64,000 bases of DNA from Paracyclopina nana (lineage: Eukaryota; Arthropoda; Copepoda; Cyclopoida; Cyclopettidae): assembly GCA_019096065.1 (NCBI GenBank), contig JAGUCH010000001.1, positions 3,348,001 through 3,412,000 of the forward strand. Reading direction: 5' to 3'. Shown piece after piece: positions 19,022 through 64,000 of this stretch. The notes below the pieces were generated by a model. That model saw only the letters and a program-made list of their open reading frames with translations. It was not told the DNA's origin and searched no databases. The translations under genes and the position numbers were made by a program. Every line of letters begins with the position of its first letter. The first letter of the stretch is position 1.

Positions 19022-19025
19022 TAAA
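19020..19025 (+). terminator. AATAAA overlapping the stop codon of the patched-domain gene
   Basis: AATAAA begins on the second base of the TAA stop. A minus-strand AATAAA for the convergent MGST3 gene sits at 19051-19056, so the two 3' ends abut or overlap. Confidence 0.6.
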
Positions 19026-19090
19026 CAAAGATAGCACAAAAACTCGAGGTTTTATTATGCTTTTTTCAAAAATACATGCGGCCTCTAATT

Positions 19091-19561: not shown

Positions 19562-20081
19562 TGTTCTCTGTTGCGTATCTGATGATTTCCAACTGCAAAG
19601 TACGATAGTACGAGTTCTAGCAAAGCGAGGGCGATTCCGTAAGATAGCAGCAGCCTGCAGCACAGTTGGGCCGGCTCAATTACCTGTTGTTCCAGAACTT
19701 GCTGCTTCTGCTACGCTACGAAGGTTATCCAGTAGACATATCCCATGAACCCTCAAACATGATGACATAATGAATATATATACACATCTTAGGCAGGATT
19801 TGCATCGCGGATTATCAAATATTTACTGTCAAGTGAAAATTGATAATGCAGGCAAAGTGTTTATTACTTTCACAGTACCTCGCACATGATTCTGAGAAGC
19901 TTGCATCTTTTTTTATGCATCAGCTAAGCATTTTTTTCACTTTCATTCTTGTTTAAGGCACTTCGCTAATTGAATAGTTTAAGTTTAGGCACATAAAAGT
20001 AGACCATTTGATGGAAGGTATAACGAGACTCATAAGTGAGAGACATGATCAAATAGGGGGAGATATTAATTGGATTCGGTT
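19562..20081. other. Intergenic, no gene seen
   Basis: Promoter side of MGST3 and 3' side of the MBD gene. AT-rich, no supported coding frame. Confidence 0.5.
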
Positions 20082-37338: not shown

Positions 37339-40300
37339 ATGACGCATTTTTTAGTATTCTTGCCGTTTGCCTGCATAATTGCCAGCATACAAGCAAATTG
37401 TGGATTCTCAAGCATAACTGCTTTAAACGCCCCAGTCGGCTTAGAGGCCGACCTTACAAATGGCAACGTTGTCAATGAAGGCGAAGCCGCGAATTTCACT
37501 TGCTCAGGCACAAACGAATTTCTGGATCCAGCATCGTCGTCAGACAACAAGCTAGCAGTAACATGTAACGCTGACGGGACATTCACAGCTCCATCATCAT
37601 GGCCCTCATGTAAAGTCAAATGCCCCGTTCCGGATCCTGACCCGGCTTCCGGATTTGCAACTCCGAATGGTAAGATGCGACCAAAGGACCCAAATCTGGC
37701 GTTATAGCAAAGTACTTTTCAGTTGAGGTAATTGAGGTGGGCGAAACGTACACGTTGACTTGTAATGAAACTGAAGCTGAAATTGATGCTACAATGACTA
37801 ATTCGATTACCTTGACATGCGGAGCGAATGGTACTTTTACGCCTGAAATTATTGGTACTTGCACCATTCCGGCAATTTGTGGTGATCCTCCGGATCCGGA
37901 CAGCGCTGCAACCGGACTAGTGTACGACAACTCTACGTATCCTGTCAGAGCGTACAGATACGCTATGTTTTCTTGCAACGAGTCTACCTTAATCACTGAC
38001 GAGGGGAAAAGCGTTTCGCTACTCTGTCAGAGTGATGGCTCGTACGAGACGAAAACCTGGCCTGTGTGTCGATATCCTAACAAATGCATTGACTACGTAC
38101 CTTTGCCATCATTAGAGTCCGGACTCGCAGATTCGACCTCAGCTGTGAATCTCGAGGGGGAGGAGGCAATTTACGAATGCTTAGGTGCTCCTCAGTACCT
38201 AGTCAACGGAATCGATCCAGATTTCAGAATGAGCTGCGCAAAAAATGGGTCGTTTCCCACGCCAGTTTGGCCTAAATGCATAGATCCGAGCACCACGACA
38301 ACCACCACGACAACTGAGAAGCCGCTGGCTCCCTGCAAATGTATTGGAGATTTGGCTGTATCTGTAGCCAGAACCATTCTTGACAATTTCTGCCGTGATC
38401 CTGACATCCCAGGGAACATTTTCCACTATGGCGGATACACGCCTTCGAGCCGAAAACGATGCGGCACTCGCTCACCCAGCAATCCGACATTACAAGACCA
38501 TTGTTTTTGCACCACTGTGGAGGAACAAGCGCGTAAGAGCAGCACACCGATAATTTGCACTTCCTTCTGATGAAGCCTCGTTTTTGCCACTTTTCCAGAA
38601 CAATCATTTCTGATGACAATAGCCTTGAAAACCGAGCCATGGCAGTGGACGCTGAACTACAAAACGCCATCTAATGTCAGCTTCCTGATGACATCCACTT
38701 CTCCGATGTACCTAGATTACAAGCTCCGAATCGAAAAAGCAGTAAGACATATGGGTTACAACTTTCAGTGGAAGATATCCCTTCATATGATACGCACTCC
38801 CTTACACTCTACTTATGCTCGTACTGCTTTTCATTTTTCATGCCTGCTTCAGAACCTGCGAGATTCAGGCAGTGGCCAGGTGTCCAGCGACACAGAAATC
38901 GCGAAATTTGTGCTGTGCAGTTAGGCTCAATAGTCTTAACCAAGTAAGTGCACGCCCCACGTCCATATAGAGACACAAACATCGCGAAATTTGAAACTTT
39001 TTGTGGCGCAGTGGCGCAGGGGTCAACAGCCATTAATAAAGTCCACAAACACTTGTGGCTTGTGGGCGTGTGAATGCAATTTTTTATTTGAAACCTCATG
39101 TGGCGCAGTGGCTCAGTGGCGCAGACGTCAACGACCATTTAATAAAGTCCGCGCGCGCTATTGGCGGGCATGTGACTGCCATTTTTTATTTGAAACCTCA
39201 TGTGGCGCAGTGGCTCAGTGGCGCAGGGGTCAACGACCATTAATAAAGTCCGCGCGAGCTATTGGCGGGCATGTGAATGCCTTTTTTAATTTAAACCTCA
39301 TGTGGTGCAGTGGCTCAGTGGCGCAGAGGTCAACGACCATTTAATAAAGTCTGCGCGCGCTATTGGCGGGCATGTGAATGCCATTTTTTATTTGAAACCT
39401 CATGTGGCGCAGTGGCTCAGTGGCGCAGGGGTCAACGACCATTAATAAAGTACGCGCGCGCTATTGGCGGGCATGTGACTGCCATTTTTTATTTGAAACC
39501 TCATGTGGCGCAGTGGCTCAGTGGCGCAGGGGTCAACGACCATTAATAAAGTCCGCGCGAGCTATTGGCGGGCATGTGAATGCCTTTTTTAATTTAAACC
39601 TCATGTGGTGCAGTGGCTCAGTGGCGCAGAGGTCAACGACCATTTAATAAAGTCTGCGCGCGCTATTGGCGGGCATGTGAATGCCATTTTTTATTTGAAA
39701 CCTCATGTGGCGCAGTGGCTCAGTGGCGCAGACGTCAACGACCATTTAATAAAGTCCGCGCGCGCTATTGGCGGGCATGTGACTGCCATTTTTTATTTGA
39801 AACCTCATGTGGCGCAGTGGCTCAGTGGCGCAGGGGTCAACGACCATTAATAAAGTCCGCGCGAGCTATTGGCGGGCATGTGAATGCCTTTTTTAATTTA
39901 AACCTCATGTGGTGCAGTGGCTCAGTGGCGCAGAGGTCAACGACCATTTAATAAAGTCTGCGCGCGCTATTGGCGGGCATGTGAATGCCATTTTTTATTT
40001 GAAACCTCATGTGGCGCAGTGGCTCAGTGGCGCAGGGGTCAACGACCATTAATAAAGTACGCGCGCGCTATTGGCGGGCATGTGAATGCCTTTTTTAGTT
40101 GAAACCTCATGTGGCGCAGTGGCTCAGTGGCGCAGAGGTCAACGACCATTTAATAAAGTCTGCGCTCGCTATTGGCGGGCATGTGCATGAGCTACGACAA
40201 CTTTTTTCGTAAGGTAAGACAAGTAAGTTACGAAAAAGTTGAGTTGATGAACAGGGCATTAATGTCTTATGTTTTCTTAAACTTAATAATCTTAGGTTAC

Positions 40301-43300
40301 TTTCAGTTTGTTAGGTTACAAAAAAGTAACTTAATGCTAGCTACTTAGACAAAATCCATTTTTAGGCCCTGTTCACCTGCATTATTATCAGCAAAATAAC
40401 GCGCGATATTATGATGAAATTTGCAAATATGTGGTATTTGTAAAATCATTTTTCAGATTTTGACTTCGGGATCGGTATATTGGTACCAAAAGCCATCCTA
40501 CACCAATATAAAAATTCTCAGTTTCTCAGTATTTCTCTCCAATATTTTGCCAAAATAACGGCCATAATAAGCAGGTGAACAGGCCCTTAGCTTCTTAGCT
40601 AAGTAGCCCTATATGTACATATAAGCCGCGATTTCATTGGAGACTGAACTGTGAATTCTTACTAAGACAAAAATGACTTGTGTTATGTTTAATAGTGTTA
40701 AGTAACATTCAGATAGTACACGTTTACAAGGCTGTTGTCATATTGCCGGAAAAAGCTAAACTAAGGTAAAATTAGATAAGCTAAGGTAAAAATTACATAA
40801 GCATGCAGTTAAGTAGAAGTACCGCACGATGCGCAAGTTCTCTCTCTTGCGAACCCTAGGGTGTTCATCTATGCCTCGTTTCCTTAAAATCTTACGACAG
40901 CCTTAAACGAAATGCTTAAGTTTTTGTACTTCTGACTAATCAAAACACTTCTAGCTCATATGACCAAAAGAGGTCGGAAAAGCGGTCTAACTGAAGCTAT
41001 GAAAAGTGATTAAAAATGATCAGTTCAGAAAAAGGAGGCTTAAGTAAAACGCAATTTGACGGAAGGAAAACCTTGGTAGGCGAACACAGCATAAATGAGT
41101 AAACATTTCGCATTGCGTTATACTTCTACTACTAAACTGCTAATAAAACGCGAAATTCTTGACCACCAAGTCAATTTTGAGTCAAAATGTCAGTTGCAGT
41201 TGATAGTTTGAGTCAAGTTGACTATTTTCACTCAACTTGAGTTTGCAAGAGCAAAAACTTGCGCATCGCGTTATGCTACTACTAAATTGTGGACAAAGGC
41301 TAATGCCCTGTTCATGTACGCCCCAAACTCCTTAGGAAAATGCAAGAAAAACACCTCAAGGAAAGGAAAATTTTATTACTATTAGCTGAGACGGCTGAGC
41401 AGTACATAAGCTCCGACCTCATAATATCCATGATTTTTCATTGCTAGCTGATTTAGAGGAAGATAATGAACATTATCCATCTACAAGTGGATAATGATCA
41501 TTATACCTTACATGAGCCTAGCGCCATCTATTTCATACCAATATGAAAGAAAAAATGGGAAAGAAACTCTAAGAATCGAACCCGGGACAGCCGATTAGAG
41601 TGCCGACGCTCTACCAATGAGCCAGCTATGTATTCCTTGATTCAGGCAGTTTTTTGGTAATATAATCTAGCTGTACAATAAGCAGCCGAGCCGGTACAGG
41701 CAGCATCTTTGCTGAACAGTGCTGCTTACAGCTAGAGTCATTGGGTCATCTTAGCTGACCGCGTGGCATGCGCTCATCATCCCTTTCCAGGTGGCAGTGC
41801 GCACTGCAAAAGTACGTGACAAAGCGAACTACTGAATTTAAGGCAATTTTGTCCTTAAAATTGCACAAAAAAAAACAACCAAAACTGAATTTGGGAATAT
41901 GCATAAATGTAGGGGGTAGCTAATAGTAATAGCATTATACGCCTTTAGGCTGTCGGAAAACACGAATTATTTTTTAGTGTCTCGTGACAATCACTCGTTC
42001 GCTGCGCTCACTCGTGATCTGTCACTTGACACTAAAAAATAATTCGTGTTATCCTCCAGCCTAGCGGCGTATAATGCTATATTAGCAATTAATTAGAAGC
42101 ATAAGGCGATGCGCAAGTTTTCGCTTTTGCGAATTCAAATTGAGCAAGGTGCCAAAACTAACTGAAACTAGCATATTTTATGGCAACCTTTTTTTTTGAG
42201 CTAGGAGCGGAACTCGCGTAACGTGAAAAATAGCCAGAGCGAAATTGCATTTTTTGACAAAGGCCAAACTTTGGCCTTTATTTCACCTAGTTTTGACCTG
42301 ACAAGTCTCCTAGTGCCAAAACTAACTGAAACTAGCATATTTTATGGCAATTTTTTTGAGCTAGGAGCGGAACTCGCGTAACGTGAAAAATTGCCAGAGC
42401 GAAATTGCATTTTTTGACAAAGGCCAAACTTTGGCCTTTGTTTCACCTAGTTTGACCTGACAAGTCTCCTAGTGCCAAAACTAACTGAAACTAGCATATT
42501 TTATGGCAACCTTTTTGAGCTAGGAGCGGAACTCGCGTAACGTGAAAAATTGCCAGAGCGAAATTGCATTTTTTGACAAAGGCCAAACTTTGGCCTTTAT
42601 TTCACCTAGTTTTGACCTGACAAGTCTCCTAGTGCCAAAACTAACTGAAACTAGCATATTTTATGGCAATTTTTTTGAGCTAGGAGCGGAACTCGCGTAA
42701 CGTGAAAAATTGCCAGAGCGAAATTGCATTTATTGACAAAGGCCAAACTTTGGCCTTTGTTTCACCTAGTTTGACCTGACAAGTCTCCTAGTGCCAAAAC
42801 TAACTGAAACTAGCATATTTTATGGCAACCTTTTTGAGCTAGGAGCGGAACTCGCGTAACGTGAAAAATTGCCAGAGCGAAATTGCATTTTTTGACAAAG
42901 GCCAAACTTTGGCCTTTATTTCACCTAGTTTTGACCTGACAAGTCTCCTAGTGCCAAAACTAACTGAAACTAGCATATTTTATGGCAACCTTTTTGAGCT
43001 AGGAGCGGAACTCGCGTAACGTGAAAAATTGCCAGAGCGAAATTGCATTTATTGACAAAGGCCAAACTTTGGCCTTTGTTTCACCTAGTTTTGACCTGAC
43101 AAGTCTCCTAGTGCCAAAACTAACTGAAACTAGCATATTTTATGGCAATTTTTTTGAGCTAGGAGCGGAACTCGCGTAACGTGAAAAATTGCCAGAGCGA
43201 AATTGCATTTTTTGACAGAGGCCAAACTTTGGCCTTTATTTCACCTAGTTTTGACCTGAGTGCGCGAACTTTATTATTGGTCATTGACCCCTGCGCCTCT

Positions 43301-46300
43301 GAGCCACTGCGCCACATGAAGTTTCAAATAAAAAATGGCATCCACATGCCCACAAGCCACAAGCGTGCGCGAACTTTATTATTGGTCATTGACCCCTGCG
43401 CCACTGAGCCACTGCGCCACATGAAGTTTCAAATAAAAAATGGCATCCACATGCCCACAAGCCACAAGTAAGGCGAACTTTATTATTGGTCATTGACCCC
43501 TGCGCCACTGAGCCACTGCGCCACAAGAAGTTTCAAATAAAAAATGGCATCCACATGCCCACAAGCCACAAGCGTGCGCGAACTTTATTATTGGTCATTG
43601 ACCCCTGCGCCACTGAGCCACTGCGCCACATGAAGTTTCAAATAAAAAATGGCATCCACATGCCCACAAGCCACAAGCGTGCGCGAACTTTATTATTGGT
43701 CATTGACCCCTGCGCCACTGAGCCACTGCGCCACATGAAGTTTCAAATAAAAAAATGGCATCCACATGCCCACAAGCCACAAGCGTGCGCGAACTTTATT
43801 ATTGGTCATTGACCCCTGCGCCACTGAGCCACTGCGCCACAAGAAGTTTCAAATAAAAATGGCATCCATATGCCCACAAGCCACAATCGCGCGCAGACCG
43901 GGCAGGCGTTAGAGGGTGCGTAGGCTAGCTACTCGCGGCCATTGACCCCTGCGCCACTGAGCCACTGCGCCACCAATTGTAGGCGCAAGTCATTCTGTGT
44001 GCCTGCTCTGGGCTGGCCTGTATGGCACAAGTTTCGCGATTTCTGTGTCCCTGGACACCTGGCCACTACCGAGATTCATTAGGACGTACATTATTCATTT
44101 TGATGCATTCATTCACCGTTCAATGAAAGCATTTGGAAACGATAGCATGTTATCTCAAAATATTGTTGCTTTGCAGATTGACGAGGTGTTTTACAGTAGT
44201 CCTGTATCTGGAGACTACATCAGAGCACAAGTCGTTAAATTCTATAAAGGCGGAGACATTCCTCTAGGCACGTTCCCTAATGAAGAGCCAACCACGACCA
44301 CGACAACCACTACAACAACAACGACAACTATTACATGCGACCCTCAACTCCTGGTCGATCTTAATGTTCCAACGCACTTAGCTACAACTACCACAGCTCC
44401 TGTGGCCGCGGGAGATAGCGTGGAGTACAAATGCAGTGGAGCAGGAGAGGTAGAAATTACCAATCAATATCAGGAGAATCACATTCAAATAAATCAGCCT
44501 TCCCCAGACATTGTTCACAGATGCTGCTCCCGACGGGCGAATTGTTGCAGGAAACAAAGTCACATTGACATGTGCAACTGATGGCCTTTCTTATAGTGGC
44601 GCACCAACTCCTTGGCCTTCGGACTGCAGAAGTCTCACCGAGACTTGCACGCTGCCAACTCCAGTGGCAGATTCAGGCATGGATGCCCAGCCAGCAGGAA
44701 CAGCTGATCCTGGAGTGGGAGGAACCCTCACATTTTCCTGCACAGATCCTGCGCACGAACTAGATGATGGCTCAGGGGCGACCAGCTATACAGTTTCTTG
44801 CTTGGCTTTTGAAGCAGCCGCAGATCCTGGGTATGAGGTGAAGATCAACGAGGATCCCGCTAATTGGCCCAAATGCGCAGCTCCCACAGCAAAGCGAAAG
44901 CGGAGGCAAATCATTCCCGTACAATATCAGTTCATAAATGTCCTCGTTGATGTTCAATTTTTGGATGCTAACACTACTAGCTTAACTGACGTGGAGTAAG
45001 GCTACATTGAATCATTATTTGTAATTCTAACTTTAAAAAATCTCATTAGATCTGTTTACAACGATATGGGAGGCAGCAGTGGCATTTTAACCGAGGGCAT
45101 TATCATCGATAAGGGGAATTGCCCCAATACAACCTGTTTCGTTACAGATGGTGAAAGCTATTTACAATAAAATATCCCTTCTTAGGCTGACCTCCATTTA
45201 TACTGGCCTTTCAGAGCTGCCCGTGTGCGATAACAGCTTCTTTAACGGCGTGTCCGATCTGTACGAGATTGTGACCAAAAATGGAATTTACGAGAAGCCC
45301 CCCACCCCTTTGACCCAGGCACAAATCGACGGGGGAATAACTTTGCCGCCCTACACAGAGGTGTTTATGCAAGCTGGAGATTTGGCAGAGCTGAGATGCA
45401 AAGAAAGCACACCAACAAGATTACCCCTCACGGATTTGGCAGACGACGACCCGACGGACTATACCATTACCGCCTTTTGCATGGCACCACAAGTTGATGG
45501 GATTAGCGGAAGGTAAAAAAAAACATAGTGTACTCGAGCATTAAATAATTGATGCTCTGGGCGTGGTACATGCATATTAATGAAATTATCCAGGCTCAGT
45601 CTGGAAATGAAAGCTGCATGACCATTTGCAGTATTTTTACGCGAGAGCTCATTTGTTTTTATGCCCCGCTGCAGGCAAAGTAATAGCCAGAGTATGCTGA
45701 AAAATGCTAATTCTCGCCCTAGAATCAACTTGAGAAATGTGCCCGAGTGCGTCCCAGTATGCATTGATCCGCTGCCAGAGGCTCCTTTCGACACTGATTT
45801 GCTCCTGACGTCTGTAATCCCCAGGGCGAACCCAGATCAACGAAGAAATTTGTCCGATTACGGCAGCGAGGCGAAGCCCATGTTTTCAGGGGACAGATTG
45901 GAGTATTCTTGCCGAACTGAATATTGGGGGCTTTTTGGAGGCCTGGATATTACTCACGACTCCTTCAAGTAAATTATTTTCTGAGCAAGGCTGTTAACCA
46001 CAGGAATAGTTATATCTTCATTATAGGTGCAACGATGAGGGATTATATGACGCGCCAGGGCCAACTGACGTTTGGCCGTTGTGCTCTCCTCAACAAGGAA
46101 GTAAGTTAAAGCTTCTTTTTGGAACACCTACAGCTGAATTGTGGAAAAATAATTACTCATGCTATGCAGACCAAATCTTTGCTGAATTTGACAACGGCAA
46201 TTTCAACTAGATTACGAAACCTGGAGGAAATGAAATCATAAAAATGGAAACGCAGCAAAATAAGGCCTCTTTTGATGGTAGAACATATACATCTCAAGGT

Positions 46301-46936
46301 CTTTGGCTTGAATACGCTATTGAGTCGCAGCTACTAATGCAGCAGGGAGAATTAAGCAGCTTACGAGTTTAAGCTATTTTCACTATATTCCCATTGAACA
46401 TCTCCTGGATAATATCTTTCCTCAAGGCAATCATTACGAAAAGCTACCTTCTAAGCCGCGTTAGGGAACTGCTCTCCTCAGAGGCTTTTTGCCTTAATTC
46501 GAATGTTAAAAAATACGAAAAAATTATCTTGCCGAGAATAACTCATACCGTATCATCGCATAGAAAGGTTCGAAGAAGCGAGATTATCATCACTGCGGTG
46601 TTCCCTTTCCTCGTCGTAATCAATTTTCTCTTTTGCCTTTCAGTGGTTATAACAGCCGTGGAGCTTATGCTTGATACCTTTGATAGGCGAATTTCAGACA
46701 GATACAAACTGATAGACTACAAAGAAGACGATGACCAAAAGGAAATTATTTACTTCAGCAACGAGTTCTTCGCTCAGATTTCCATACCAATCATTTCAGG
46801 TAATTTAAAATTATGAAACTTTCGTAATAGCCAATCAATTGTGAATTCCCTAGGCTTGACAATTTTCATTCTATGCTGCTGCTGTTGTACACGAAATGGA
46901 AGCCCTCTTTGCCAATTGTGTAATTCGAAAGTTTGA
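37339..46936 (+). CDS. Gene A: large CCP/SEA transmembrane protein
   Basis: Model exons: 37339-37669, 37723-38532, 38599-38741, 44177-44449, 44508-44995, 45050-45150, 45215-45512, 45675-45968, 46028-46100, 46484-46799 and 46854-46936 (1,069 residues). Order: signal peptide (LVFLPFACIIASIQA); four sushi-like CCP modules with four cysteines and a WPxC ending; a Thr-rich linker; a six-cysteine module from CKCIGD to HCFCT; an SEA-like domain (LDYKLRIEKA joined to IDEVFYSSPVSGDYIRAQVV); a second Thr run; more CCP modules; a basic KRKRR site with a second SEA-like stretch; then two hydrophobic segments and a Cys-rich tail (FILCCCCCTRNG). The SEA domain is split by a 5,435-base intron holding the foldback element. 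The join from 46100 to 46484 is the least certain; an alternative exon at 46170-46241 ends in a stop. Probably a cell-surface adhesion or recognition protein. Confidence 0.8.
38859..38867. repeat. Left target-site duplication CGAGATTCA
   Basis: Nine bases identical to 44070-44078, lying directly outside the inverted ends of the foldback element. Confidence 0.8.
39000..40190 (+). repeat. Tandem array, about 12 copies of a ~102-base unit
   Basis: Unit runs from GTGGCGCAGTGGCTCAGTGG through GGTCAACGACC and TAATAAAGTC to a TTTTTTATTTGAAACCTCAT tail. Copies begin near 39003, 39100, 39202, 39303, 39404, 39506, 39607, 39709, 39810, 39911, 40012 and 40111. Variants alternate in a higher-order pattern. 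TGGCGCAGTGG matches a tRNA A-box consensus. Confidence 0.92.
40365..40586. mobile_element. MITE with TTA target duplication (Tourist/PIF-Harbinger-like)
   Basis: Inverted ends GGCCCTGTTCACCTGC and GCAGGTGAACAGGCCC with TTA on both sides (40362-40364 and 40587-40589). 222 bases, no coding frame. It is nested in the foldback element. Confidence 0.65.
41564..41640 (-). pseudogene. tRNA-like remnant
   Basis: Minus strand shows an A-box-like TGGCTCATTGGTAGAGC and a B-box GGTTCGATTC, but the anticodon and T stems do not pair properly. Probably a decayed tRNA or the head of a tRNA-derived SINE. Confidence 0.4.
41928..42082. mobile_element. Near-perfect palindrome (MITE-like hairpin)
   Basis: Two ~70-base arms, beginning TAGCATTATACGCC and carrying ACACGAATTATTTTTTAGTG, meet at a centre rich in CACTCG. 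Hairpin elements of this sort are typical of MITEs. Nested in the foldback element. Confidence 0.7.
42145..43258 (+). repeat. Tandem array, about 7 copies of a ~160-base unit
   Basis: Unit starts GTGCCAAAACTAACTGAAAC near 42150, 42313, 42471, 42633, 42792, 42952 and 43112. Copies differ in a few positions (TTTTTTTGAGC versus CTTTTTGAGC, TTTTTGACA versus TTATTGACA) in an alternating pattern. Each unit includes a short inverted repeat GGCCAAACTTTGGCC. Confidence 0.92.
43258..43975 (-). repeat. Inverted tandem array, about 6-7 copies of a ~105-base unit
   Basis: Related by reverse complement to the array at 39.0-40.2 kb: on the plus strand it reads GACCCCTGCGCCACTGAGCC. Copies start near 43259, 43364, 43470, 43575, 43679 and 43785, with a divergent last one at 43.9 kb. 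It forms the right inner arm of the foldback element. Confidence 0.92.
44070..44078. repeat. Right target-site duplication CGAGATTCA
   Basis: Second copy of the 9-base duplication flanking the foldback element. Confidence 0.8.
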
Positions 46937-47426
46937 CCAATAAAGAAACATTGAACATCTTGCACTACAAATGCTTCGTCAAATATTCAAAAGCTTGCGC
47001 AATCAGCAATAAAACCTATAGAGTTGATATAAACGATTGTGCCAAGATTAGTACGAAAAATATCCGCGAGCCATAACCGATAGCCCTAATTTTCTTATTG
47101 CACAATTATTCTTATTGCGCTCTTGTGAGCCAAGACAAACTACTGGGATTTCACGAAAAAGAAGGGGCAGGCAGTATTGGAAAACGATGAAGTTTTAGGG
47201 GAAAATTCAAAGCAACGTCATAGGACTACTAATAACTTTCTGCATCTAGCTTAAAAAAGTCGTAGCGTTCACTTCAAAAGAAAGCACTCGTTTATTGTGT
47301 TTTCAAGACAACGCAGCGAAATGAAACAGGATAAATTATTAAGAAACACGTTGCCTTGGTTTGCCCTTGCCACTAGCTACACCGAAAAACCTTTTGCAAT
47401 TGAGTTGATCCAGCCAAAAAAGTAAT
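46937..47426. other. Intergenic between genes A and B
   Basis: 490 bases with an AATAAA at 46939-46944, three bases after the gene A stop. No other gene seen. Confidence 0.6.
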
Positions 47427-50400
47427 ATGAAGCATTTGTTCAGCAGATTTGTGGCATCAATCTTTGCAATCACTTTGCTGGGTAAGAAAATGCATCTCTA
47501 CGAGCAAGGTTTTGCCACTCAATTTACCCTTTTCTCTCCCATTTAATGAAAATTCAGCGACCAAAGCAAACTCAGTTGAGCCCTTGTTGTGTGACTGCGA
47601 AAACGAGATTGAATCGTGTGGATGCGAGAGTATTCGCCGCTTCAAAAGGCAAAGTAAGTCAATATTAGAGCAAGTCTCTAGTCGAAGGCCACCAGCATTG
47701 TAATAAGTCAAGGCCCGCTCCTTTTTTATCTAGATCGCAGCCTAGATTTTTCCTCATGAATAAAACTAGCATAAAAGGTCTCCTTTCATAACTTGTTCAA
47801 CTGCACAACATTTGAAAAAGAAATTTCCCATCAAAATATGATTTCAGCCACATCGAATTGCTCAGACACGGCAGTTCCAGCTTTGCCAAGCCACCTAGTT
47901 ACGCCAACAGAGTTTGTTGACGGATACGATGCGAGCGGAAACTTGCAGCTTAGGTGCTTAAATGGAATGGTTCTCAACATGACTGACAACGGCGGGGAAA
48001 ATGGGTTTCTGACAGGAGGATATTTTGTTTTGCAATGCGATCTTGCCAGCAGCGAGTGGATTCCGCCGTCAACTTGGCCCCCTTTTGAGGCCTGCATCCC
48101 CGGCAGTGCATGTCCCTTATCTCAAGCACCCACGTAAGCATTTCGAAAGCAATATCTTTTTCCATGATTGAGTACATCGTGCGTCTTTTCAAGTCTAGGG
48201 GATCATCTACAGGCAAGTACTGCAGGGGACACGGAAATCATCTCGGGAAATCTCCTCAAATATGGCTGCGTTGACAGCGCCAAAGTTTTGAATAGCACGT
48301 ACGCTGGCTTCGCAGTTGAGTGCTATAATGGAGAGTTCCTCGACTCGCCCAAAATTCCTCCCGCTGACGCTTGCGTTGATCCTTTGCCATGCGACCTGAC
48401 AAAGTTCACCGAAGCCAGGTCGTTTATGCAGACAAATGCCAATCTGAGCTCGACCATCGAGCACGGAGATGTCATCGACTTCTTTTGCAAAGATGATCGC
48501 ACTTTAAATGCGGCCAAGGACCCAGACGGCGACAATTTGTTCAGCATTGAATGCAACAACGGAGAAATGATCAAGGCTACTCTCTGGCCTGACGAGACAG
48601 AAGTAACAGCCGAATTCGTTTTTACTTGCAGAATGATAGTAGTATGTTCATTATTTTCCAGTGCCACGCAGTCTGCTCTAACATTACACTGATCCCAGAC
48701 AGCCTTGGATTTGATCTCCCTGCAGGCCCTGTGAATGTTTTATCCAGCTACTTTCTGAACATGACTTGCAGTGACCCTACAAATATAGTGAACAACACCT
48801 GGACAACCAATTTCTTCGAGCTCGAGTGCCTGTCGACGGGAGAGTTTAAGGACTACGGTGCAGCGTAAGTAGAAAATTGATGCGTAAAAAATGTCGCGAT
48901 GATGACATTTTAAGGCGCCTTTCTTCCCCCCATTATAGCAAGCTCGCAAGTAATTTGTGAAAAAGTGTTGAGCTCTTCATTTTAGGTGGCCTGCTTGCAT
49001 TGAAAAGGCTCCGTGTGGATTACCTCCTCAATGGCCTGTCAATTCAGGGCTTAGAGCGGAAAGCGAAAGTGAGCAAGTTTGGATCCCAGATTCGGCTGTG
49101 TTCAAGTGCAGGGAGCCTGGCAAAGTCACCGACCTGGGGCCCACAATTGAAATTCGGTGCATCATGAAGCCTGGAGAATCGAATGCCACCTTTCAATACC
49201 CCAAGGGCTGGGGCGGGGCTCAGACCAAGTGCAGGGATCCGATCATTTGCAAAAATCCCTTTGAGGCTCCTCTCCTCACGGGACTAGAAATAGTTCCTCA
49301 GAACGAGTCCTACTACGAGTTCTCCAACGCACAATATAGGTAAGAGAGAAAAATGAATAAGGGCTTTCCCCTAAGAGGCTTGATAATTGGAAAATGCTCT
49401 TCTTTTTGAAAAGGCACAACAAAAACTGCCTTTCCCAGCTCCCTAAAGGAATTTCATACATTTTTCACGTAATTTTGTTGCAGGTGCAAAGATTCATCAC
49501 TCATTCTGTACAAGGATCAAATGCCCATGGGAATTGGCTATTTTGACGTGAAATGCGGCTTGGGAGGTGAATTCGTGCCTCCGCCAGAAGGATGGCCGTT
49601 ATGCGACAGTGTCAGCCCAAACAAGTGCACTGTTTTCCCCACAAATGTACCAAGCATCGTGGACATTGTCAAAAAAGAGCCTCAGCTACCAGGAGGGAAA
49701 ATTTACTACAAGTGCAAACAAGAGGGCTTCATAAGCAACTTGGGCCCTCTCGTTGAGGTGAGATTAGTCGGAACCTAATACCCAATTAGATAAAGAATTA
49801 CATTCAACCCTGTTTTCCAGGTTGAGTGTGTCAAAGGTCTGGATGGGGCGTTGCCCAAGTTTGTGACTCCAAATGGATGGAAGAATCTAAAGTGTCGTTC
49901 CGAAATCTACCCTGACTTCCGAGCAGATGCTTGCTTTTGCCCTGGAGACGAAGGCATTTCTGAGGCCTTACATCTACAGATTCTACAGCTTTGTTATGAG
50001 GCTGCCACGACGTTTGATGTGCATCCAAGTGCAGCTTCAATGAGCGTTCCCATGAAAAGGCGTTGTGGCGTTGGATCTCTACACAATGTCACCAAAGAAA
50101 ACTTGTGCTTCTGCACAGAGCGAACCGATGCAGCCACAGGTAACACACACATATGAATAAAAAGCAGTCTTCATTGTCGTCGACTTGCATAAGTTTGCGA
50201 TTACGTCAACAGGGGATATGCTAATGCTGGAATCAACGTGTCATTCGGAGGTGCTAGTAATAGACTTTTTTCATATTGTGACTCACTATGGAACACTTTG
50301 TAACATTATGCAATGACTTCACTGCTTTTGGTTCATTTCTATCTCAATGCTAATTAGCCAAATTGATAATATTCAAGCTTCTTTTTAGCCGAATTTCCTC

Positions 50401-53400
50401 AATTAGACATACACTGACAAGAGCTGTCTGCGTCACTTAGAGATGCTCTGACAACAATCATCAGCTAAGTACACTCATTTAAGAGCAGTTTGCGGAGGTG
50501 TTCAACCTTTGCAAAACCTTCCATTATTTTTTACACCTGAGACTTAAAGTTAGCAGCCAAAGTATCAATAATATGAAGCTTATGAGATAATGAGTCAAGA
50601 GGAGCCCGTAAATAAGTCCATATCTATCCTACCGGCAAATTATGTAACATTTTGGACGTCCGATCGCTGCCTGCATCAGACCTCCAATTTCTAACGAATC
50701 AGTTTTTCTCATAATTTTTTTTCCCAAGTAGGGTTTTTTCACCATATTTTGAGCGATATTTTGCAAGTAAATTCAATTTTTCTGCAAATTTCGGGCTGGC
50801 TTTTGGGCTGTTTTTAAGGCAAGCCATTGCATCAATCTAAGGTGTTCCCAGAATGGCATTAAAGATAATTTGCTAAATTATTTGAAAAGTTGGCTCTTTT
50901 TGGCCTGATCCTATTTTTAACAATTTGAAACACTTATGAGGCACGGGTCAACTACGCTCACGCGATCATGACGTCACTTTCACTGAGTGGACCTCCGAAA
51001 AAAGAGAAAATCGCCGATTCGCTTCCACATTACGCATACCCAGCATAACTAGGTTTAGCCAGGAGCACGTACTCTACGTCTTTTCTAAATACCTGATTAT
51101 ATAACTATCACTCAGCTTTGAACCTCCCTAATTAATTCTCCGAATAACGAAAGCTAATAAGGACGTTGTGAAAAATCATAATTCAATATGTAAAAAATAC
51201 AAATGTCCTACCTTAACTCATCGCCGTTTTCAAAGCGTTCGGTTCATTTCAAATCAGCTACACTTTCACTTGTTCATAGAGGCTTTCTTCTTTGCTTCAT
51301 GGGCCTCGAAAGTTTCCACCACATTTCACTTTAATTTGCTTTTCGCAACGACGACAAGATTGAAGAAACTGTTTCGATGCAAGATTGATCACGCTTTTCG
51401 GCCACGGTCACTGACGTTGAAGTTAATTGCTCACTGAGGACTTGTGTTCTCAGCTGAGCCCTGAGCCAGTTGAGTCAGCGTACGTGTCATTTGCGCTATG
51501 TCCGGGTGTGCTGAGCGTTGACCTGCGCTCGCGCTCGCAGATTTAGCACAGAGCTGGCCGAACGAACGACTTTTGTTTTTGTTTAGGTTGGCGAGTGGCG
51601 CTTTTCAAAAGGATCGGGCAGCTTTATGACTTAGGATTGCTAAGATTATTTGGTTATCTCGCGGAAAACCAGAAAATTAATCGAGAGCCGGTCTGTTGTA
51701 GCTTGTTGTATTTTTATTTTATTTTCAGATTTTGCCATCTGGTCGAGGGTCGAAATAACCAACTATGACTTCCACGCCAACTTCACCGAGCCCTCCACCA
51801 AAGAGTTTAAGTTGGTCAAGAAGCTTCTGGAAAAAGAAGTATACCGTCGCTTTTTTTAGAAATGCTTGAATGATAAGAGACTTTTTTGACAGCTTGATTT
51901 GAGGATTTTGAAAAACTGGAAGAATCCTGATTGGCGATTTGTGAGGAGCAAAGTCATTTATTTTGGCCCGAGTCATCCTAAAAAATGCTCCCTGCAAGAT
52001 TTGCCAGAGCCGGATCCAGGTGAGAATTGAAAGTGCCTACTTATCAACAATAGCGAGCTTGCCAAGCGCTTGGCTAAAATATATCTTATGACATATCAAA
52101 AAAGTTTCTTAGCGCCGAAGAGAAGGAAAGCTCCCTTGGGAGACAGTCTAACGCTATATGAAAAATTACTTTTTTATAGCCTCTGGTCTTGTGGTTTCAT
52201 CCACCAAATCTGTTCTTTTTGACGAGCACGCCGAGTTCAAATGCTCTAACCCTGACTATGTCACGGACGATGGGTTCATCTTCAAGTTGCAATGCCTCTC
52301 AAACGGCCAGTTTCGTACCAGGAAATGGGAGACTTGTAGGCCCAGGGAAACGTGCTCTAAAACTCCTCCGCGGCCCCCAGCAGAATCCGGCCTTCAAAAT
52401 AACTACACTAGAACGGTGCTCGAGTTCGGATACGCCACCTACAAATGCATCGACCCTGCCAAGGTACTAAATAATTTAGCTGCCATTTAAAAGTTAGGAT
52501 GCACTCGTGTAATGTGACTACAGGTCGTCGAGGGCACTCCTGATGGCCGTTTTAGCGTTATGTGCAAGAAGCAAGGAATTTGGCCTCAAGCTGCTGGCAA
52601 ATACGGTGTCGAATGGCCGACTTGCGGATCCAAGCCCTCGCAGATTTGCGAGCCAATCATGGATGCACCCGAAGGATATGTTGACGCTTTTGAAAGGACG
52701 CTTTACGTAGTCGAGGGCACAACTATTGCCTTCAAGTGTGCCACCGACGGCTACTTGGCTGGAGACGTTGAAAAAATTTACTACACGTAAGTGGTGTTGC
52801 TGAAAACTAGCACTTCTCTCAAGTAGGCCCTCATTTTTAAAGGTGCGCGCAATCTTCTGGTAATGCAACTACCGGGTACGAGCTTAAACCTGTCTACCAC
52901 GACACCGTGCCCACATGCAGGGCCCCTGCTATTTGCCCCTCAAATGCAATGCCCATTCCTGATGAAAGCTCTGGGCTATCGAAGCCTTTGCAAGCCAAGG
53001 AATTGAAGGAGCTGGAATACGTCGACTACGATTGTGCCAACCTGGGCATCTCTTGGAGCCTTTTGGGAGAGTACACCCCCAATGATGACTACTTGTTTGA
53101 TAGCAAAGTTGAGATAATTGACGGAAAGCTCAGGATACGGTGTGGACCTGGGGGAAATCTTGGGATTGTATGTATTTTGGAGTGATGCCCATTTGTTACG
53201 CTCCAAATTTCATTTCCAGGTTGCCAAATGGCCCAAGTGCCGTGACTCATCTGTTACTGGCTGTGCTGTTACCTCATCCAACCCAAAACTACCAGTGAAT
53301 GATCTGTCTGTTTCCAACTTGGGCTCGAGTGTTGCATTTGGTGAAAAAATTACGGTTGCGTGCAAAGATCCCACAAAAATAACAGAGGCCTTTGTTAACC

Positions 53401-56400
53401 TTGAGCTGGTATGAGAGTTCTACTTTGTGGTGGTACATCCATTGTATTTGATCATTTGTATAGGCCTGTCAGTACGACGGAAAGTTCACGCTGCCCGTAA
53501 ATTTAAGCTTTACTCCATGTCGAGCTCCAACAGAATGCCCAGAATCGCCTACGCCTCCAGCGGAAACTTTTTTGGTCGCAACTCCTCTGGTGGCTGCATT
53601 GAAGGAACACGAAATACAGGAATACACTTGCAGCGATGGCTACACGCTAGCAGGTGTTTTACATCCCCTCGTAACTGCGAGCAAAAAAGTGGAAGTGCCT
53701 TGCAGAAAGAGCGAGTTGGGTGCATTTCTGCAGCCGCCTGAATGGTCTCCGAATGCTGAAACTTGGCCCACTTGCTTACCGATTACAACTGAATGCTCCG
53801 AGTATCCTCAGTTGCCAGGATTTACCTTCACTTCTAGCGAGTGGCCTGTCAAAGTTGGCTCAACTATTACAGCCGAGTGCTACGAAAGTGGTACATAAAA
53901 AACGCACTTAGTGGAGCGCATATCACATCTTTTAAAATTCCATTTCAGGAAAAGTAACCTATTTGGGCGCTTCTTTCACCTTGACTTGTGCTGAAAGCGG
54001 TCTCTTTGACATACCCCAAAAGGAGCCTTATTGTAGAGCTCCCATTATGTGTCCTACGAGTCCTTCACCTCCAAATAACACTCTTCTCGAAGAATCGTTC
54101 TCGGTGGACGTGAAAGAATGGGGAAGGGCTCACTACAGTTGCCAACCAGGCTCCAAGATTCCTGACAGTGTAGTTACCGACATCATAGATGGTAACTTTA
54201 CGGTAGAATGTGGATCTATTGGAGTCTATCCTGTAAGTTGATTTTTTTAAATGCTTCACTTGCGTTCATATCGGTTAAAATATGCTTCAGGAAACTGTAA
54301 ATTGGCCCGAATGCGAAATCACTCATTGCATGGAGATACCTGACCAGGCCACCTTCAAGGCCGATTTAAATCCTCCCGTTCCTGTTGGAGATGTCATCAC
54401 TTATATCTGTGCAACACCTGGCGAGGTGCCAGACAATGCCAGTCTTAGTCTTGAGTCCACCTGTCAATCCGATGGGACTTTTTCCCCGATAGATCTATGG
54501 CCGACCTGTCGGACAGCCATTAGTTGCCCTGCCTCACCAGTTCCAGACCAGGCAACTACGTTTTTGCTGGCCACCTCAACCTCTGGCGTTAAGGAGTACA
54601 TGTATGCCAAATACTCATGCCAACCGGGGGCAACGCTGGCGGGAGTGACGGGCAATGCAAATGTGGTAAATAACCAGTTTCAAGTCAAGTGCGAGGTGGG
54701 TGGAATTTGGCCAACTTCGGTCAATTGGCCAACCTGCAAGGTAGAAAATTGCTCGTCCCTTCTTGTTCAAACGGGTTACACGTCTACAACTGCACTTCCT
54801 GTTCCCGTTGGAGGCAAAGCAAAGTATTTTTGCGCTAATGCGGCTCAAGTCACTGATGGAGGACCCTCATTTGACCTCACTTGTGGCCCAAATGGTAATT
54901 TTGTGCCGCCAGCAACATGGCCTACGTGCCGAAACGCTGCTCTCTGCACCAATATCCCCATACCACCAGCCAGCTCAAATCTGCTTAAGCCCACGAGTGT
55001 GACGAGCGTCAAGGAATTTCAAAATATGTCCTATCCATGCAAAGCTGATGGGAAATTTGAATCCTCGAGAACGGCCTTTGAGCTGCTGTGCCCATTGCAA
55101 GGCAATTTTCCTGCTGCATCCGCAGTCACGTGGCCGACATGCGTTGTCTCCAACTGTCTCACCATCCCCTCAATAAATGGATTCACCAAGCTCACGGATG
55201 GCCCTGTGCCTGTGGGTGGCTTTGCCGAGTATGAGTGCGTGACAAGCGACCAGGTCACGGATTTGGGGGCTGTGATGAAATTGCAGTGTCAGGATGATGG
55301 CAGTTTTCTCACACCCTCTTGGCCTACTTGTAGAAGCAGGGGAAATTGCTCTGAGAGTCCCCCTACGCCTGACCTAGCCTCAAAATTGCAGCCTTCCACG
55401 TCCACTGATTTAAATGAGTTTGATGATGCTGTGTACTCGTGCGAAGATACATACACTCTCCTCGGAGTAACAATGAGTGGTGTCGCGAATAACCAATTCA
55501 GCCTACAGTGCGGAATTGGTGGAGCTTTCCCTGCATCTGTAACATGGCCAACTTGTAGGCCCACTGTGTGTCCAGCTACAGACATTCCACCGCTGACGGG
55601 CTTCACTACTTCAGCTTCCGCAGATACACCTATCGGTGATTCTATTAGCTTCACCTGCGCCCAGAGTGGACAAGTCACGGATAGCGGAAAATTTCTGATC
55701 ATACCGTGTAGCCCATATGGAGGTTTTGTAGGGCCCCAAACTTTGCCCACTTGCCGCGATCCTGTGGCCTGCTCGGACACGATACCGTCTCCACCAGCAA
55801 GCAGTAATTTGCAGGCCTCGACGAGTACCGTGGCCAACGAGTTCGACACAGCCGCCTATTCCTGCAAGTCGGGCCTTCTTACCGAAACTGGAAAATCGGA
55901 TTTTTCGCTAACGTGCGGTTTGGGAGGCAAATTTCCTGCAAGCCCGACCTGGCCTACGTGCAAGGCTCTGTCTTGTGACATTCTTCCGAGCAACCCGGAA
56001 TTCTCGATTGTTGGATCATCGACAGCTCCCATTGGCGTGGGGAAAGCTGTAACGTATCAATGTGCAACGCCTGGCTACGTTCACGACGGTGGAAAATATG
56101 TGACAGCCACATGTGGTACAGACGGAATTATCGCCACTCCCAATTGGCCGACTTGTAGGGCTAGTGTTGCTTGTTCTGATGCCATACCTACCCCTCCAGC
56201 AGCGAGTCAACTGGCAACATCAACCACTACTGTGTCAAAAGAGTTTGACGCGGCCAAGTTCCCTTGCAAAACGGGATATGCCCTTCAGTTGGGTGTCCCT
56301 GCTTTTGATCTGACGTGTGGATTAGGAGGCACGTTTCCCACGAGTCCCAGTTGGCCCACCTGTTTTCCACTGTGCAAAACTCATCCGACGCTCCCTGCCG

Positions 56401-58323
56401 AAGCCACAATGGAGCCATTGGTTCTTGCTCCGTCCGTAGCCGCAGGACTCTCGACTCCTTACAAATGCAAGGGAGCCTCAGGCAGTGTCACCAATCAAGG
56501 CAAAACGCTAGATGTTTTCTGCGGAACCGATGGCAATTTTATCCTCCCTGCAAGTTGGCCTACTTGTAGAGTTGCAGTACAATGCTCAGCTCCCCCAGCT
56601 CCGCCCGCATCGTCCAATTTGGCCGCCACTACATCTACAGGCCTTAAAGAATTCGATGTTGCCGTATATGCATGCAATGCTGGCTTTAGCCTCTCCGGTT
56701 CGATTCAGCCCTATGTTGGCCGGATCAGTGCTGATGGGCAATTTGAGCTACCTTGTGGCTCAGGAGGATCGTTCACAATCAATGACGCTCAGTGGCCTGT
56801 ATGCAAGGCTGCGAGAAAGAAGAGATATATCTTGTATGAAGGTCTGAAGAATGACGTGACGTACACTATCAACGCCATATTTGAGACACAGTGGATGTTC
56901 ACTGACGGCGTGGAATCGGACATTCTCGCGGAACGGAACTTCTCGATGAAGAACCCTAATTTCCCTAAGGCTGTAATTGAGGTGTTCCACGAACGGATCG
57001 AGGAGACCTTGGGTGATTTGGATTTTGGGGCCGTGAAGCTGAGCGGACCAGTTCACCCTTCGTGCGAGCAGCCCATGACTTCTTCTTTCCCCTCTGGATG
57101 TGTGCTAACGCAAGGTGAGTGCTAAGAATAAAGTTTTTCGGAGAACAATTTCTGAAGTATACTCCTCTATGCAGTTACGCCTGTTTGCCCCAATGAAGCC
57201 ATTGAAGGCGCCTGGCTTAAGTCTCTGGGTTTTACTTACAAGAAGCAATTACCAAATTGGACCAATGATAGCTTTACTGGCGTTGCCAGGCATAAAGTGC
57301 CTGTTGGTGGAGCCATTGAATTTTACTGCATCGACTCTCTCAAGAGACCGAAAAAGGATCCGTGGGATCAGAACAAAGAGGATGGCATCATAAGTGCGTA
57401 TTGCACGCACACTGGCCTCATTTCGATTACAATGAATCCTGGAGGTAATAATTCTCCAACTGCCTTCATACAGTAAATCATGTCTATGACGCTTTGTTCT
57501 TGTATCAGACTGGGACAGATGTCGACGACTATGCCCTGTGCAAAAGCCCAAGGCCCCATTGATTCCCGGGGCTCAACTTATATCCTACTCGACCGAAAAA
57601 GATGTAAGATTTCTGAATTGCATATAGTATTTTGTTGTCGTCCCCGCGAGCGTATTTTTGTTCTGTCGTATCGAAAGCAAGTCTTGTAGGAGGTAAAATC
57701 GCTGAAGTATGCTGTTTGCCTTTCATATAGGATAAGGAATTGTGGGAGGATGACACTATAGTTTATGGCTGCGAAAATAACTCCCTTGTGATAAACCGGA
57801 GGAAAGGCGTCCATTCGGTGAGCTACAAGTGCATGAACGATGGGACGTATGCTACTCCCAAGGGCAAGGAAGTTGGTGATCCCTGGCCTGAGTGCACACT
57901 AAAGCCGGTTGATCCCTGTAAGTGTAACTTAATTAACAACAATTGTCGTGTGCTCCAATATGGAGGACGAATGTTTCTAATTCTCTCGTATGCATATTGC
58001 TAATGCTTGACTTGTGCAATTCTGTTGCCACAGCTAGTGCAGAATGGCTTTCACAAACAATGCAAAGCGTAATTACATTATTTCTTTTGACAGTTATCGT
58101 GGATGCAATTGTGCTCTTAACTGGAAAATTCGACAGAAACCTCGTTTATTTGCAAGAGCTGGCAAAAACTGGCGACACCGAGCCAGACACGCTTGACACG
58201 ACTGTTGCAATCATCGCAATTACTATACCCGTGATGGTGGCTATTGTGGCCTTTATCTTCTTCTGCATGTGCTTTTCAAGAGCTGACAGTCCAATTTGCA
58301 AAATATTTGAGCCTCAAGCCTAA
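47427..58323 (+). CDS. Gene B: giant CCP/SEA transmembrane protein (2,556 aa)
   Basis: Exons 47427-47481, 47558-47653, 47848-48133, 48194-48602, 48662-48864, 48986-49339, 49484-49757, 49821-50139, 51729-51838, 51893-52019, 52180-52463, 52524-52786, 52843-53167, 53220-53408, 53464-53890, 53949-54232, 54291-57114, 57175-57444, 57509-57603, 57731-57917 and 58034-58323 total 7,671 bases, an exact multiple of three. Order: signal peptide (RFVASIFAITLL); a CDCE/CGCE segment ending RRFKRQ; CCP-like modules; a six-cysteine module (CFCPGDEG to LCFCTE); an SEA-like domain (FKLVKKLLEKE joined to LDLRILKNW); about twenty more CCP modules; a basic ARKKR site; a second SEA-like domain; atypical CCP-like parts; two hydrophobic segments near the end (VITLFLLTVIVDAIVLL and VAIIAITIPVMVAIVAFIFF) and a short tail. 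Same plan as gene A, 490 bases downstream: a tandem duplicate. The function is unknown; CCP proteins often bind complement-like or adhesive partners. Confidence 0.86.
50140..51728 (+). other. Long intron of gene B
   Basis: 1.6 kb between the six-cysteine module and SEA exons. AT-rich, with one TGACGTCA at 50969-50976 and no supported gene. It lies close to the place where gene A has its transposon-bearing intron, one intron earlier in domain order. Confidence 0.6.
54291..57114 (+). repeat. Six alternating two-CCP repeats in one exon
   Basis: Within gene B, modules alternate between type a (PVPVGG start, QVTDGG-like middle, WPTCR end) and type b (PPASSNL start, STST..KEFD, CGLGG.FP end). Twelve modules follow one another without introns, while earlier modules are cut by introns. 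Confidence 0.85.
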
Positions 58324-61815: not shown

Positions 61816-62933
61816 TTACATTCTTCCATTCCTGATTTTGGAAATATTAATCACGCACTAGAAAGGCGAGAATATGAAAGTAGTAGCAAGGCTGTCAACT
61901 TAGCTTACTCTCCGCGTGTAGAAAGTACAAGCTTACTATTGTGATGGACATACTTGGTATTGTGAAAAATTAATTCATCTCCATTTTGCAGATTTCTTTA
62001 TTTTCAATAGATCATATTTTTTTGCGGCCCATATTAATGATATTGAGCTAGGAGTCGTTTTTCATTTTTGATAGACAACCGCTAGTTATCTAGCTGGCCA
62101 AATGAGTGGCAATTTTTCATTCGCCTTCACTGCACTGTTTATTTGCTAACAAGCCTTGCTCGTTGAACAAATTCGATAAGTCATTAGAAAGTTACAAAAC
62201 GATTATTTGTTCCGCTTTCAATGAGCGATTTTCAATTAGCACCTTTTAACGTGAGAGTCAACCTGCCAGTTACGACTCATTCCTACTTTCTTCGCAGCTT
62301 TTCTAAAATGAAATTAATTAAAAACTCCGACTTCAGTCTGCTGCATTCAACCCGTCCAATTTTTGCTTTTCAAAGTTTCCAATGAACATTCCGAAGAATT
62401 ATATTAGTAGCTCTCACAAATGTTTTGAATGACTTTTTCTCTTGGTGAACTTGGGTAAGAAAGGCCATACAGATCGAGTCAGGCAAAGTTGAGCACAATG
62501 TCATTTTGAAAAATTGGAAGTTCAGTTCCCAATTTGGATTATCTGAGAACTTTGTTAAATTACAAGTATAGTGAGAAGAAATTGTTGGCCACGAAGCCTT
62601 CTTCTCATGTTGAAAAGTGCTGCACGATAATGGCATAACTATGGTCGCCTGTACATGTGAAAGTGTCAAGCATGGAAGTTATGTGCACTTTGTAGTTGCG
62701 TTTTACATAGCATTTCTCCCAGTTTCTTTGGATTTCATAAATTGCTCTAACGCTGAAAGTACTCACAAGCAATCACGAGGAGCTGGAGCACAAATAGCTA
62801 AATTCCTACTTAGGAGATGGGAAAAAAGGTTTTCACAGTTGGTAGTTAAGGGGGAAAGGCACAGTACACTACCATAATCGAAAGTCCCTTAACTAGTGTT
62901 GTTCCTTTTCAGAGTTTGAGAAAAGACAGCAGG
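61816..62933. other. Intergenic and 5' UTR of the terminal GPCR
   Basis: AT-rich, no supported coding frame. A good acceptor (TTCCTTTTCAG) ends at about 62912, so a 5' UTR exon lies upstream of the GPCR start. Confidence 0.5.
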
Positions 62934-63951: not shown

Positions 63952-64000
63952 GTAACTAAATTGAGTGCCAATCACATTTGGATTTCATAACATTTCTCCT

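Follow-up and report, generated by a model that had tools for sequence, protein, structure and literature searches.

The window analysed, 64,000 nucleotides of the Paracyclopina nana contig JAGUCH010000001.1, carries two adjacent predicted genes, A and B (Table 1). The ATG of gene A is at 37339 and the final base of the gene B stop at 58323. They look like two genes because AATAAA occurs at 46939 and 47008, downstream of the gene A stop, and because gene B has an N-terminal hydrophobic stretch of its own. The original prediction of two genes sharing one layout outside any named family was upheld within the scope searched and was extended to at least five genes in the genome: A, B, C (1503 aa) and the tandem D1 and D2, all on one contig and within 2.32 Mb. 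The genome gave 80 matches to the RR-cuticle family Chitin_bind_4, in keeping with an arthropod; Col_cuticle_N matched nowhere, and neither did the control of that search.

Table 1. Predicted genes A and B and their parts, in window coordinates.
Feature	Position	Strand	Details
Gene A	37339..46936	+	11 exons, 10 GT-AG introns, 1016 aa; frame open, without internal stop
Gene A exons 1-6	37339-37669, 37723-38532, 38599-38741, 44177-44449, 44508-44995, 45050-45150	+	
Gene A exons 7-11	45215-45512, 45675-45968, 46027-46100, 46644-46799, 46854-46936	+	
Gene A likely signal peptide	37339..37395	+	hydropathy 1.8, residues 5-23; free-ends exon run picked another start
Gene A first CCP run, 4 modules	37393..38279	+	internal module profile, 15-42 bits each; intron 37670-37722 inside
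Gene A six-Cys module, immediately upstream of SEA	38334..38510	+	invariant columns among family copies
Gene A SEA, exon one	38599..38741	+	PF01390 match spans splice: residues 413-453 around 428
Gene A intron 3	38742..44176	+	5435 bases, phase 0; tandem repeats of about 101, 160 and 105 bases
Gene A SEA, exon two, ending at KGGDIPLG	44177..44269	+	
Gene A second CCP run, 2 modules	44333..44876	+	module profile 23.1 and 2.7 bits; intron 44450-44507 inside
Gene A basic site KRKRR	44892..44906	+	
Gene A region after basic site	44907..45150	+	visual comparison with B and C; intron 44996-45049
Gene A membrane-proximal CCP pair	45215..46088	+	Cys pattern; blastp to B 48.9 bits, to D1 49.3 bits
Gene A predicted transmembrane segment and Cys-rich tail	46780..46936	+	hydropathy 2.4; alignment with B and C; intron 46800-46853
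Gene B	47427..58323	+	21 exons, 20 GT-AG introns, 2536 aa; frame open
Gene B exons 1-7	47427-47481, 47558-47653, 47848-48133, 48194-48602, 48662-48864, 48986-49339, 49484-49757	+	
Gene B exons 8-14	49821-50139, 51729-51838, 51893-52019, 52180-52463, 52524-52786, 52843-53167, 53220-53408	+	
Gene B exons 15-21	53464-53890, 53949-54232, 54291-57114, 57175-57444, 57509-57603, 57731-57917, 58094-58323	+	
Gene B first CCP run, 7 modules, some divergent	47848..49898	+	module profile 0.3-30 bits
Gene B six-Cys module	49932..50114	+	
Gene B SEA, two exons	51729..51985	+	phase-0 intron 51839-51892; PF01390 13.8 bits, E 0.064
Gene B second CCP run, 20 modules	51993..56804	+	module profile
Gene B basic site ARKKR	56811..56825	+	
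Gene B region after basic site	56826..57114	+	Pfam: none; predicted-model blocks pLDDT 34-55
Gene B membrane-proximal CCP pair	57175..57896	+	blastp of B 2312-2531 to C, 73.9 bits; module profile 1.7 and 9.8 bits
Gene B predicted transmembrane segment and Cys-rich tail	58204..58320	+	hydropathy 3.0; alignment with A and C

The gene models are predictions whose joins rest on splice signals, reading frame and homology, several of them placed by hand. As originally proposed, gene B keeps its frame over 21 exons, its model being open to the stop with 20 GT-AG introns. In an exon search with start and stop set beforehand, which tests exon choice and not gene ends, 19 of the 21 gene B exons were recovered (both SEA exons were absent and four other exons were added), as were 8 of the 11 exons of gene A. 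A search with free ends, using weights trained on the same exons, returned all 21 gene B exons with identical start and stop and one additional 3-base exon; for gene A it gave 9 of 11, began elsewhere and placed spurious exons within the repeat-filled 5.4-kb intron. As the program outputs one gene only, this run is weak evidence on whether exons of separate genes were mis-joined. The gene A SEA exon 38599-38741 was kept whole by neither search, and the join 38741/44177 was accepted because of the frame and the SEA profile match across the splice.

Near the C-terminus, acceptors 46482 and 58034 of the first, longer hand models would give proteins of 1070 aa (A) and 2556 aa (B). We preferred 46644 and 58094 because of the exon-run choices and because introns are modelled at the same place in C (54 bases, where the frame is also open if unspliced) and D1 (78 bases). 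Acceptor 58094 was picked by the exon runs, fixed- and free-ends included, and 46644 by the free-ends run; the fixed-ends run on gene A used neither 46482 nor 46644. Acceptor scores (2.5 versus 1.9, and 1.8 versus 1.3) slightly favoured the longer forms, on which the weights had been trained. With the preferred acceptors, the C-terminus of both A and B most likely contains one transmembrane segment, in place of the several hydrophobic segments first described. The Cys-rich tail is probably palmitoylated, and no signalling motif was seen in the tails of A, B and C, all of them short.

The proposed CCP modules were confirmed: four cysteines, a WPxC end, a match to Pfam Sushi (PF00084) and the CCP fold were all found. 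The Pfam match in gene B is a single stretch of exon 17 at 46.1 bits; gene C gave 22.2 bits against a cut-off of 20.7. There was no Pfam match at E<=0.1 in the first CCP run of gene B and no qualifying Sushi match in gene A, scanned as a whole protein, and so the CCPs of A and of the first run of B were assigned by an internal profile, built from 12 modules of gene B exon 17. This profile detected 29 modules in gene B (26 above 5 bits, including the 12 used to build it), 8 in gene A (6 above 5 bits) and 7 in gene C (3 above 5 bits); among shuffled controls 0/150 full shuffles and 1/150 shuffles with fixed cysteines (5.1 bits) exceeded 5 bits. The membrane-proximal pair of gene A scored -2.8 and 5.2 bits. 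The final 12 modules of the second run of gene B are of two alternating types, with 38.8% identity between modules of the same parity and 23.9% between those of different parity.

The predicted six-Cys module is present in both A and B. Eleven columns are invariant among the A, B and C copies, and four when the second copy of C and the D2 module are added; the D1 and D2 counterparts are poorer in cysteine (four or five, with one or two of the six missing). Its AF2 model had a mean pLDDT of 37, and a PDB profile search gave just two rows, at E 1.2.

The first SEA-like domain also stands. All five SEA copies scanned matched PF01390 at E<=1, the D2 copy lying outside the scan. Against a cut-off of 26.4, the gene A domain scored 27.2 bits as an 85-residue piece, 25.5 as a 157-residue piece and 22.2 within the whole protein; the N-terminal 832 residues of C gave 31.3 bits, and the B (13.8), last C (21.4) and D1 (15.8) copies fell below. 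The position of the intron within the SEA is shared. In the profile, which is 106 long, matches end at 61 in A, 60 in B, 66-69 in C and 93 in D1. Both halves of the domain were not found together in A or B, where a Thr run or a CCP cysteine follows within about 13 residues of the match end (in gene A a Thr run starts at most 13 residues past it) and little room is left; the argument rests on this missing room because the C matches also stop at 66-69. The self-cleaving SEA motif of the MUC1 type is Gly-Ser-hydrophobic. It was not found in the SEA of A (KGGDIPLG) or B (FGPSHP), and one gene C copy carries FKGST. The SEA domains of A and B do not appear to be of the self-cleaving type, and the idea of shedding through them was not supported.

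A basic cleavage-type site stands after the second CCP run in A and B only; at the equivalent boundary C has a bare GKR and none was seen in D1, and other basic sites lie elsewhere in B and C. Shedding or two-chain assembly through this site (KRKRR in A, ARKKR in B) is possible. The region that follows had been read as a second SEA-like region, which our results do not confirm: in gene B it had no Pfam match, PF01390 included, and its AF model blocks are of low confidence. In fold searches with it no SEA entry was recognised among the rows listed, but CCP dominated these, so that they weigh neither for nor against the reading. A Pfam scan of gene A, covering the region within the whole protein, gave no second SEA match.

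The domain order of A and B recurs in gene C, a CCP-CCP-transmembrane-Cys tail is common to A, B, C and D1, and all five genes as modelled have an SEA copy. In A, B and C the head is made of CCP runs; in D1 and D2 it is a bulb-lectin-like domain, which matched B_lectin (PF01453) at 24.2 and 19.5 bits against a curated cut-off of 32.4, several splice versions having been tried beforehand; an earlier version of this head gave two unrelated PDB rows. A genome search with the B_lectin family found nothing, as was also true of its controls, and one with the D2 head recovered only D2 itself, D1 and, at E 0.47, a single C2 place. Genome searches with the B tail and with the second six-Cys copy of C each found that query alone, and matches to the B region after the basic site were limited to B's own CCPs. 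Exon by exon, none of the 59 best Sushi candidates listed (E<=0.001) and none of the 6 best SEA candidates listed (E<=1) lay inside the five genes. A Polinton-like element beside gene C (C1 1065-1075 kb) was considered by eye but is not claimed, as four frames gave no Pfam match.

We propose, with a probability of roughly 0.5, that A and B are two of at least five related genes whose predicted products are type I surface proteins with a single membrane pass, a shared base and exchangeable heads, acting in recognition or adhesion. The domain content, its common order, the place of the SEA intron and the tail shared by A, B, C and D1 are features of the predicted sequences; surface location, ligand binding, cleavage, palmitoylation and a role in immunity or adhesion are what they suggest. 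The base (CCP-CCP, short stalk, single transmembrane segment and Cys-rich tail) would anchor the SEA unit and the Cys-rich module preceding it, and the head would bind carbohydrate or protein ligands, whether microbial, self or matrix. In A and B a convertase may cut the shared basic site, leaving the large head on a stub or releasing it, and the short tail of each of A, B and C would act through membrane partners. The tethered recognition or adhesion receptor originally suggested is plausible, if short of proof, and is strengthened by D1 and D2, in which a related membrane base carries a bulb-lectin-like domain; against it, CCP runs are also found in secreted scaffold and matrix proteins. The A/B architecture was absent from the open-literature matches listed, most subscription journals lying outside that search, and the sequence searches for further members covered this one animal genome. 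More tentatively, the genes may represent an undescribed arthropod receptor set in which one conserved membrane base (Cys-rich module, SEA, CCP pair, transmembrane segment and Cys-rich tail) carries swappable heads for recognition, each either a CCP array or a bulb-type lectin, and in which a convertase cut releases some of the heads or makes them two-chain. A bulb-type lectin head would, to our knowledge, be an uncommon feature of a membrane protein in animals, and if head-swapping is true the family would offer modular surface proteins for tests of arthropod immunity or adhesion.

The proteins could, on a less likely reading, be structural mucin-like adhesion proteins of cuticle, egg coat or gut lining, in which CCP arrays are spacers, Thr-rich stretches and SEA are tethered-mucin elements and no foreign ligand is bound. 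SEA domains are typical of heavily glycosylated surface proteins, Thr runs occur in A, C and D2, and Pfam Mucin matched C at E 6.5e-4 (20.2 bits, under the cut-off of 34.7); however, gene A has only short Thr runs, of 8 and 13 Thr, and in D1 and D2 the lectin-like heads suggest binding. We consider it improbable that A and B are synaptic or neuromuscular scaffolds like Hasp and Hig of Drosophila or LEV-9 of C. elegans, in which processed CCP arrays cluster receptors. A and B do combine CCP arrays with a basic site. Hasp has up to seventeen CCPs together with a WAP domain, Hig has an Ig-like domain and five CCPs, and both are processed, but LEV-9 is described as secreted, in passages that mention neither SEA nor a membrane anchor for any of the three (PMC9083331). 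No WAP match came from the whole of A or from those parts of B and C that were scanned (B residues of about 798-1335 and parts of C being outside), and Ig_3 in A reached only E 0.041, under its cut-off. That the models wrongly join exons of several ordinary genes, or are pseudogenes in decay, is very improbable: some splice sites were set by hand and the last acceptors of A and B are uncertain, but the frames are open over 11 and 21 exons, the SEA match spans the 5.4-kb intron and the order recurs in C.

Our preferred reading, a family of surface receptors, can be set beside several known systems. Hasp, Hikaru genki and LEV-9 are likewise invertebrate, processed and made mostly of CCP arrays, but have WAP or Ig rather than SEA and a six-Cys module, and the passages on them name no transmembrane tail (PMC9083331). 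The SUSD family (PMC9083331), CR1 and CD46 carry CCPs on membrane proteins, as would A and B. No sequence relation beyond CCP was seen, the best PDB row being complement factor H (E 0.0023). We know of no SEA or six-Cys unit in the SUSD family, CR1 or CD46; CR1 has repeat units, which the two-CCP repeat of gene B resembles. A SEA alike by profile occurs in membrane mucins (1ivz, which we take to be MUC16) and in type II transmembrane serine proteases (8vis, TMPRSS11D), but here the SEA follows a Cys-rich module among CCPs, and neither whole A nor the scanned stretches of B and C gave a protease domain. The bulb-type (B_lectin) mannose-binding lectins are matched weakly, under the curated cut-off, by the heads of D1 and D2, where the domain appears fused to a membrane base.

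The two adjacent window genes A and B, which encode large predicted surface proteins with CCP (Sushi) modules and an SEA domain, have introns of 52-66 bases in 19 of the 30 cases modelled, and the reading frame of B is open throughout the model, in agreement with the original prediction that it is kept over 21 exons. The third intron of A is 5435 bases long, contains tandem repeats and splits the SEA domain in phase 0; by eye, its 105-base repeat unit looks like the 101-base unit in reverse complement. An exon-chain search with preset gene ends, codon weights from a single exon and generic splice weights recovered 8 of the 11 A exons and 19 of the 21 B exons (both SEA exons were absent and four others were inserted). 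A second search, with free ends, trained on the same A and B exons and limited to one gene as output, returned all 21 B exons plus an extra 3-base exon, with the ends of B unchanged; for A it returned 9/11 exons, began at a different place and added spurious exons within the repeat-bearing intron. The models are treated here as two separate genes, because an AATAAA lies 3' of the A stop and B has an N-terminal hydrophobic stretch of its own.

Predicted gene positions and neighbouring elements (C1, contig JAGUCH010000001.1; other positions are window coordinates)
Feature	Position	Strand	Details
Gene A	37339-46936 (window = C1:3348001-3412000)		11 exons, 1016 aa; no internal stops
Tandem arrays, A intron	39003-40189; 42149-43259; 43260-43894		units ~101, ~160 and ~105 bases
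Gene B	47427-58323		21 exons, 2536 aa; no internal stops
Gene C	C1:1083527-1090899		18 exons, 1503 aa
D1	about C1:2482380-2480019	-	
D2	about C1:2479869-2477295	-	
Alpha-tubulin-like frames (by eye)	3400-5574	-	
Adhesion-GPCR-like frames	7311-10415	-	in 7899-8855, GPS 25.8 bits and 7tm_2 19.5 bits (below cut-off)
Patched-related frames	15882-20441	+	Sterol-sensing 74.4 bits in 17239-17883
Protein kinase domain	23654-25062	+	84 bits in 23654-24565
Rhodopsin-type GPCR, close to window end	62850-63990	+	7tm_1 74.3 bits in 62850-63347
LDL-receptor class A repeats, downstream of D2	C1:2476900-2472396	-	64 bits; then multi-pass membrane frames, XK-related-like by eye, no Pfam match; putative single gene
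Polinton-type-like frames (by eye), next to gene C	C1:1065002-1075220		Pfam match in 0/4 frames

Pfam matched Sushi in B exon 17 at 46.1 bits. An internal CCP profile, built from 12 modules of this exon, detected 29 modules in B, of which 26 scored over 5 bits (the 12 used to build it among them); A has 8 modules and C has 7 by this profile, 6 and 3 of them over that score. By comparison, 0/150 full shuffles and 1/150 Cys-fixed shuffles passed 5 bits. The predicted structure of one module was good and its nearest structure rows were CCP proteins, with no Foldseek row at E 0.001. B reads as 7 CCP, a six-Cys module, SEA, 20 CCP, ARKKR, a region of unassigned fold, 2 CCP, a transmembrane segment (TM) and a tail, and A as 4 CCP, six-Cys, SEA, 2 CCP, KRKRR, a region of unassigned fold, 2 CCP, TM and tail; the final pair of A, called from Cys pattern and homology, scored just -2.8 and 5.2 bits. 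The 12 modules of B exon 17 are of two alternating types (identity 38.8% same-parity vs 23.9% different-parity), as might be seen after duplication of a two-module unit.

Five SEA copies (A, B and three of C) matched PF01390 at E<=1: the N-terminal part of C passed the cut-off (31.3 bits), A passed only when scanned as a short piece, and B was below it (13.8 bits). The top three of the 9 structure rows for a profile of these copies were SEA structures, and all seven modelled copies (A, B, C x3, D1, D2) have a phase-0 intron at a matching position, with one C splice hand-set and D1 and D2 positioned by eye. There is little room for the second half of SEA in A and B and both lack Gly-Ser; therefore the self-cleavage that had been proposed is unsupported. 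The six-Cys module, immediately upstream of SEA in A, in B and twice in C, has shorter relatives with four and five Cys in D1 and D2; it had no Pfam match of its own and no PDB row at E <1, and structure prediction gave no usable model.

The genome (92 Mb, ten contigs), with 80 matches to the cuticle domain Chitin_bind_4 that point to an arthropod, holds three further members on the same contig. The Cys module and SEA of A found C (E 0.05), the end of C found B, D2 and D1 (E 0.0025-0.010), and 9 of the 10 rows for the end of D1 were D1, D2, C, B and A, the tenth being a Sushi place on another contig, C2 (E 0.045). C has an additional N-terminal part with Thr runs, basic sites and another SEA copy; D1 and D2 lie head to tail, the second CCP and end of D2 being modelled incompletely and its tail, SFLCKIC, taken by eye. 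Blastp matches among A, B, C and D1 were collinear (49-93 bits), and their E-values mean little because the set was these four sequences. In the aligned tails, C-x-C, R and P-x-C recur in each of A, B and C, and the D1 tail, CVLCGIRNESPLC, agrees with this pattern by eye.

The signal peptide of both D1 and D2 is followed by a domain whose sequence resembles bulb lectins. In the best of several splice versions tried, B_lectin matched D1 at E 5e-5 (0.025 earlier) and D2 at 1.4e-3 (no match, then 0.12, earlier), both under the cut-off. PDB rows for this version were six proteins (E 0.08-0.7), which we take to be of bulb-lectin type; an earlier version gave two unrelated rows. At the sequence level, the five proteins show different heads on related bases (CCP-CCP-TM-tail in A, B, C and D1) with an SEA unit. 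Such proteins would be anchored at the surface, the head might bind ligand, a convertase could cut A and B, and signalling would run through partners. A tethered-mucin or matrix role is an alternative, as is a CCP scaffold role like that of Hasp and Hig (PMC9083331, excerpt). For different heads on a shared base, genomic comparison was within this one animal genome and the module combination was not found in the open-access papers searched; the module types themselves, except the Cys-rich module, are already known.
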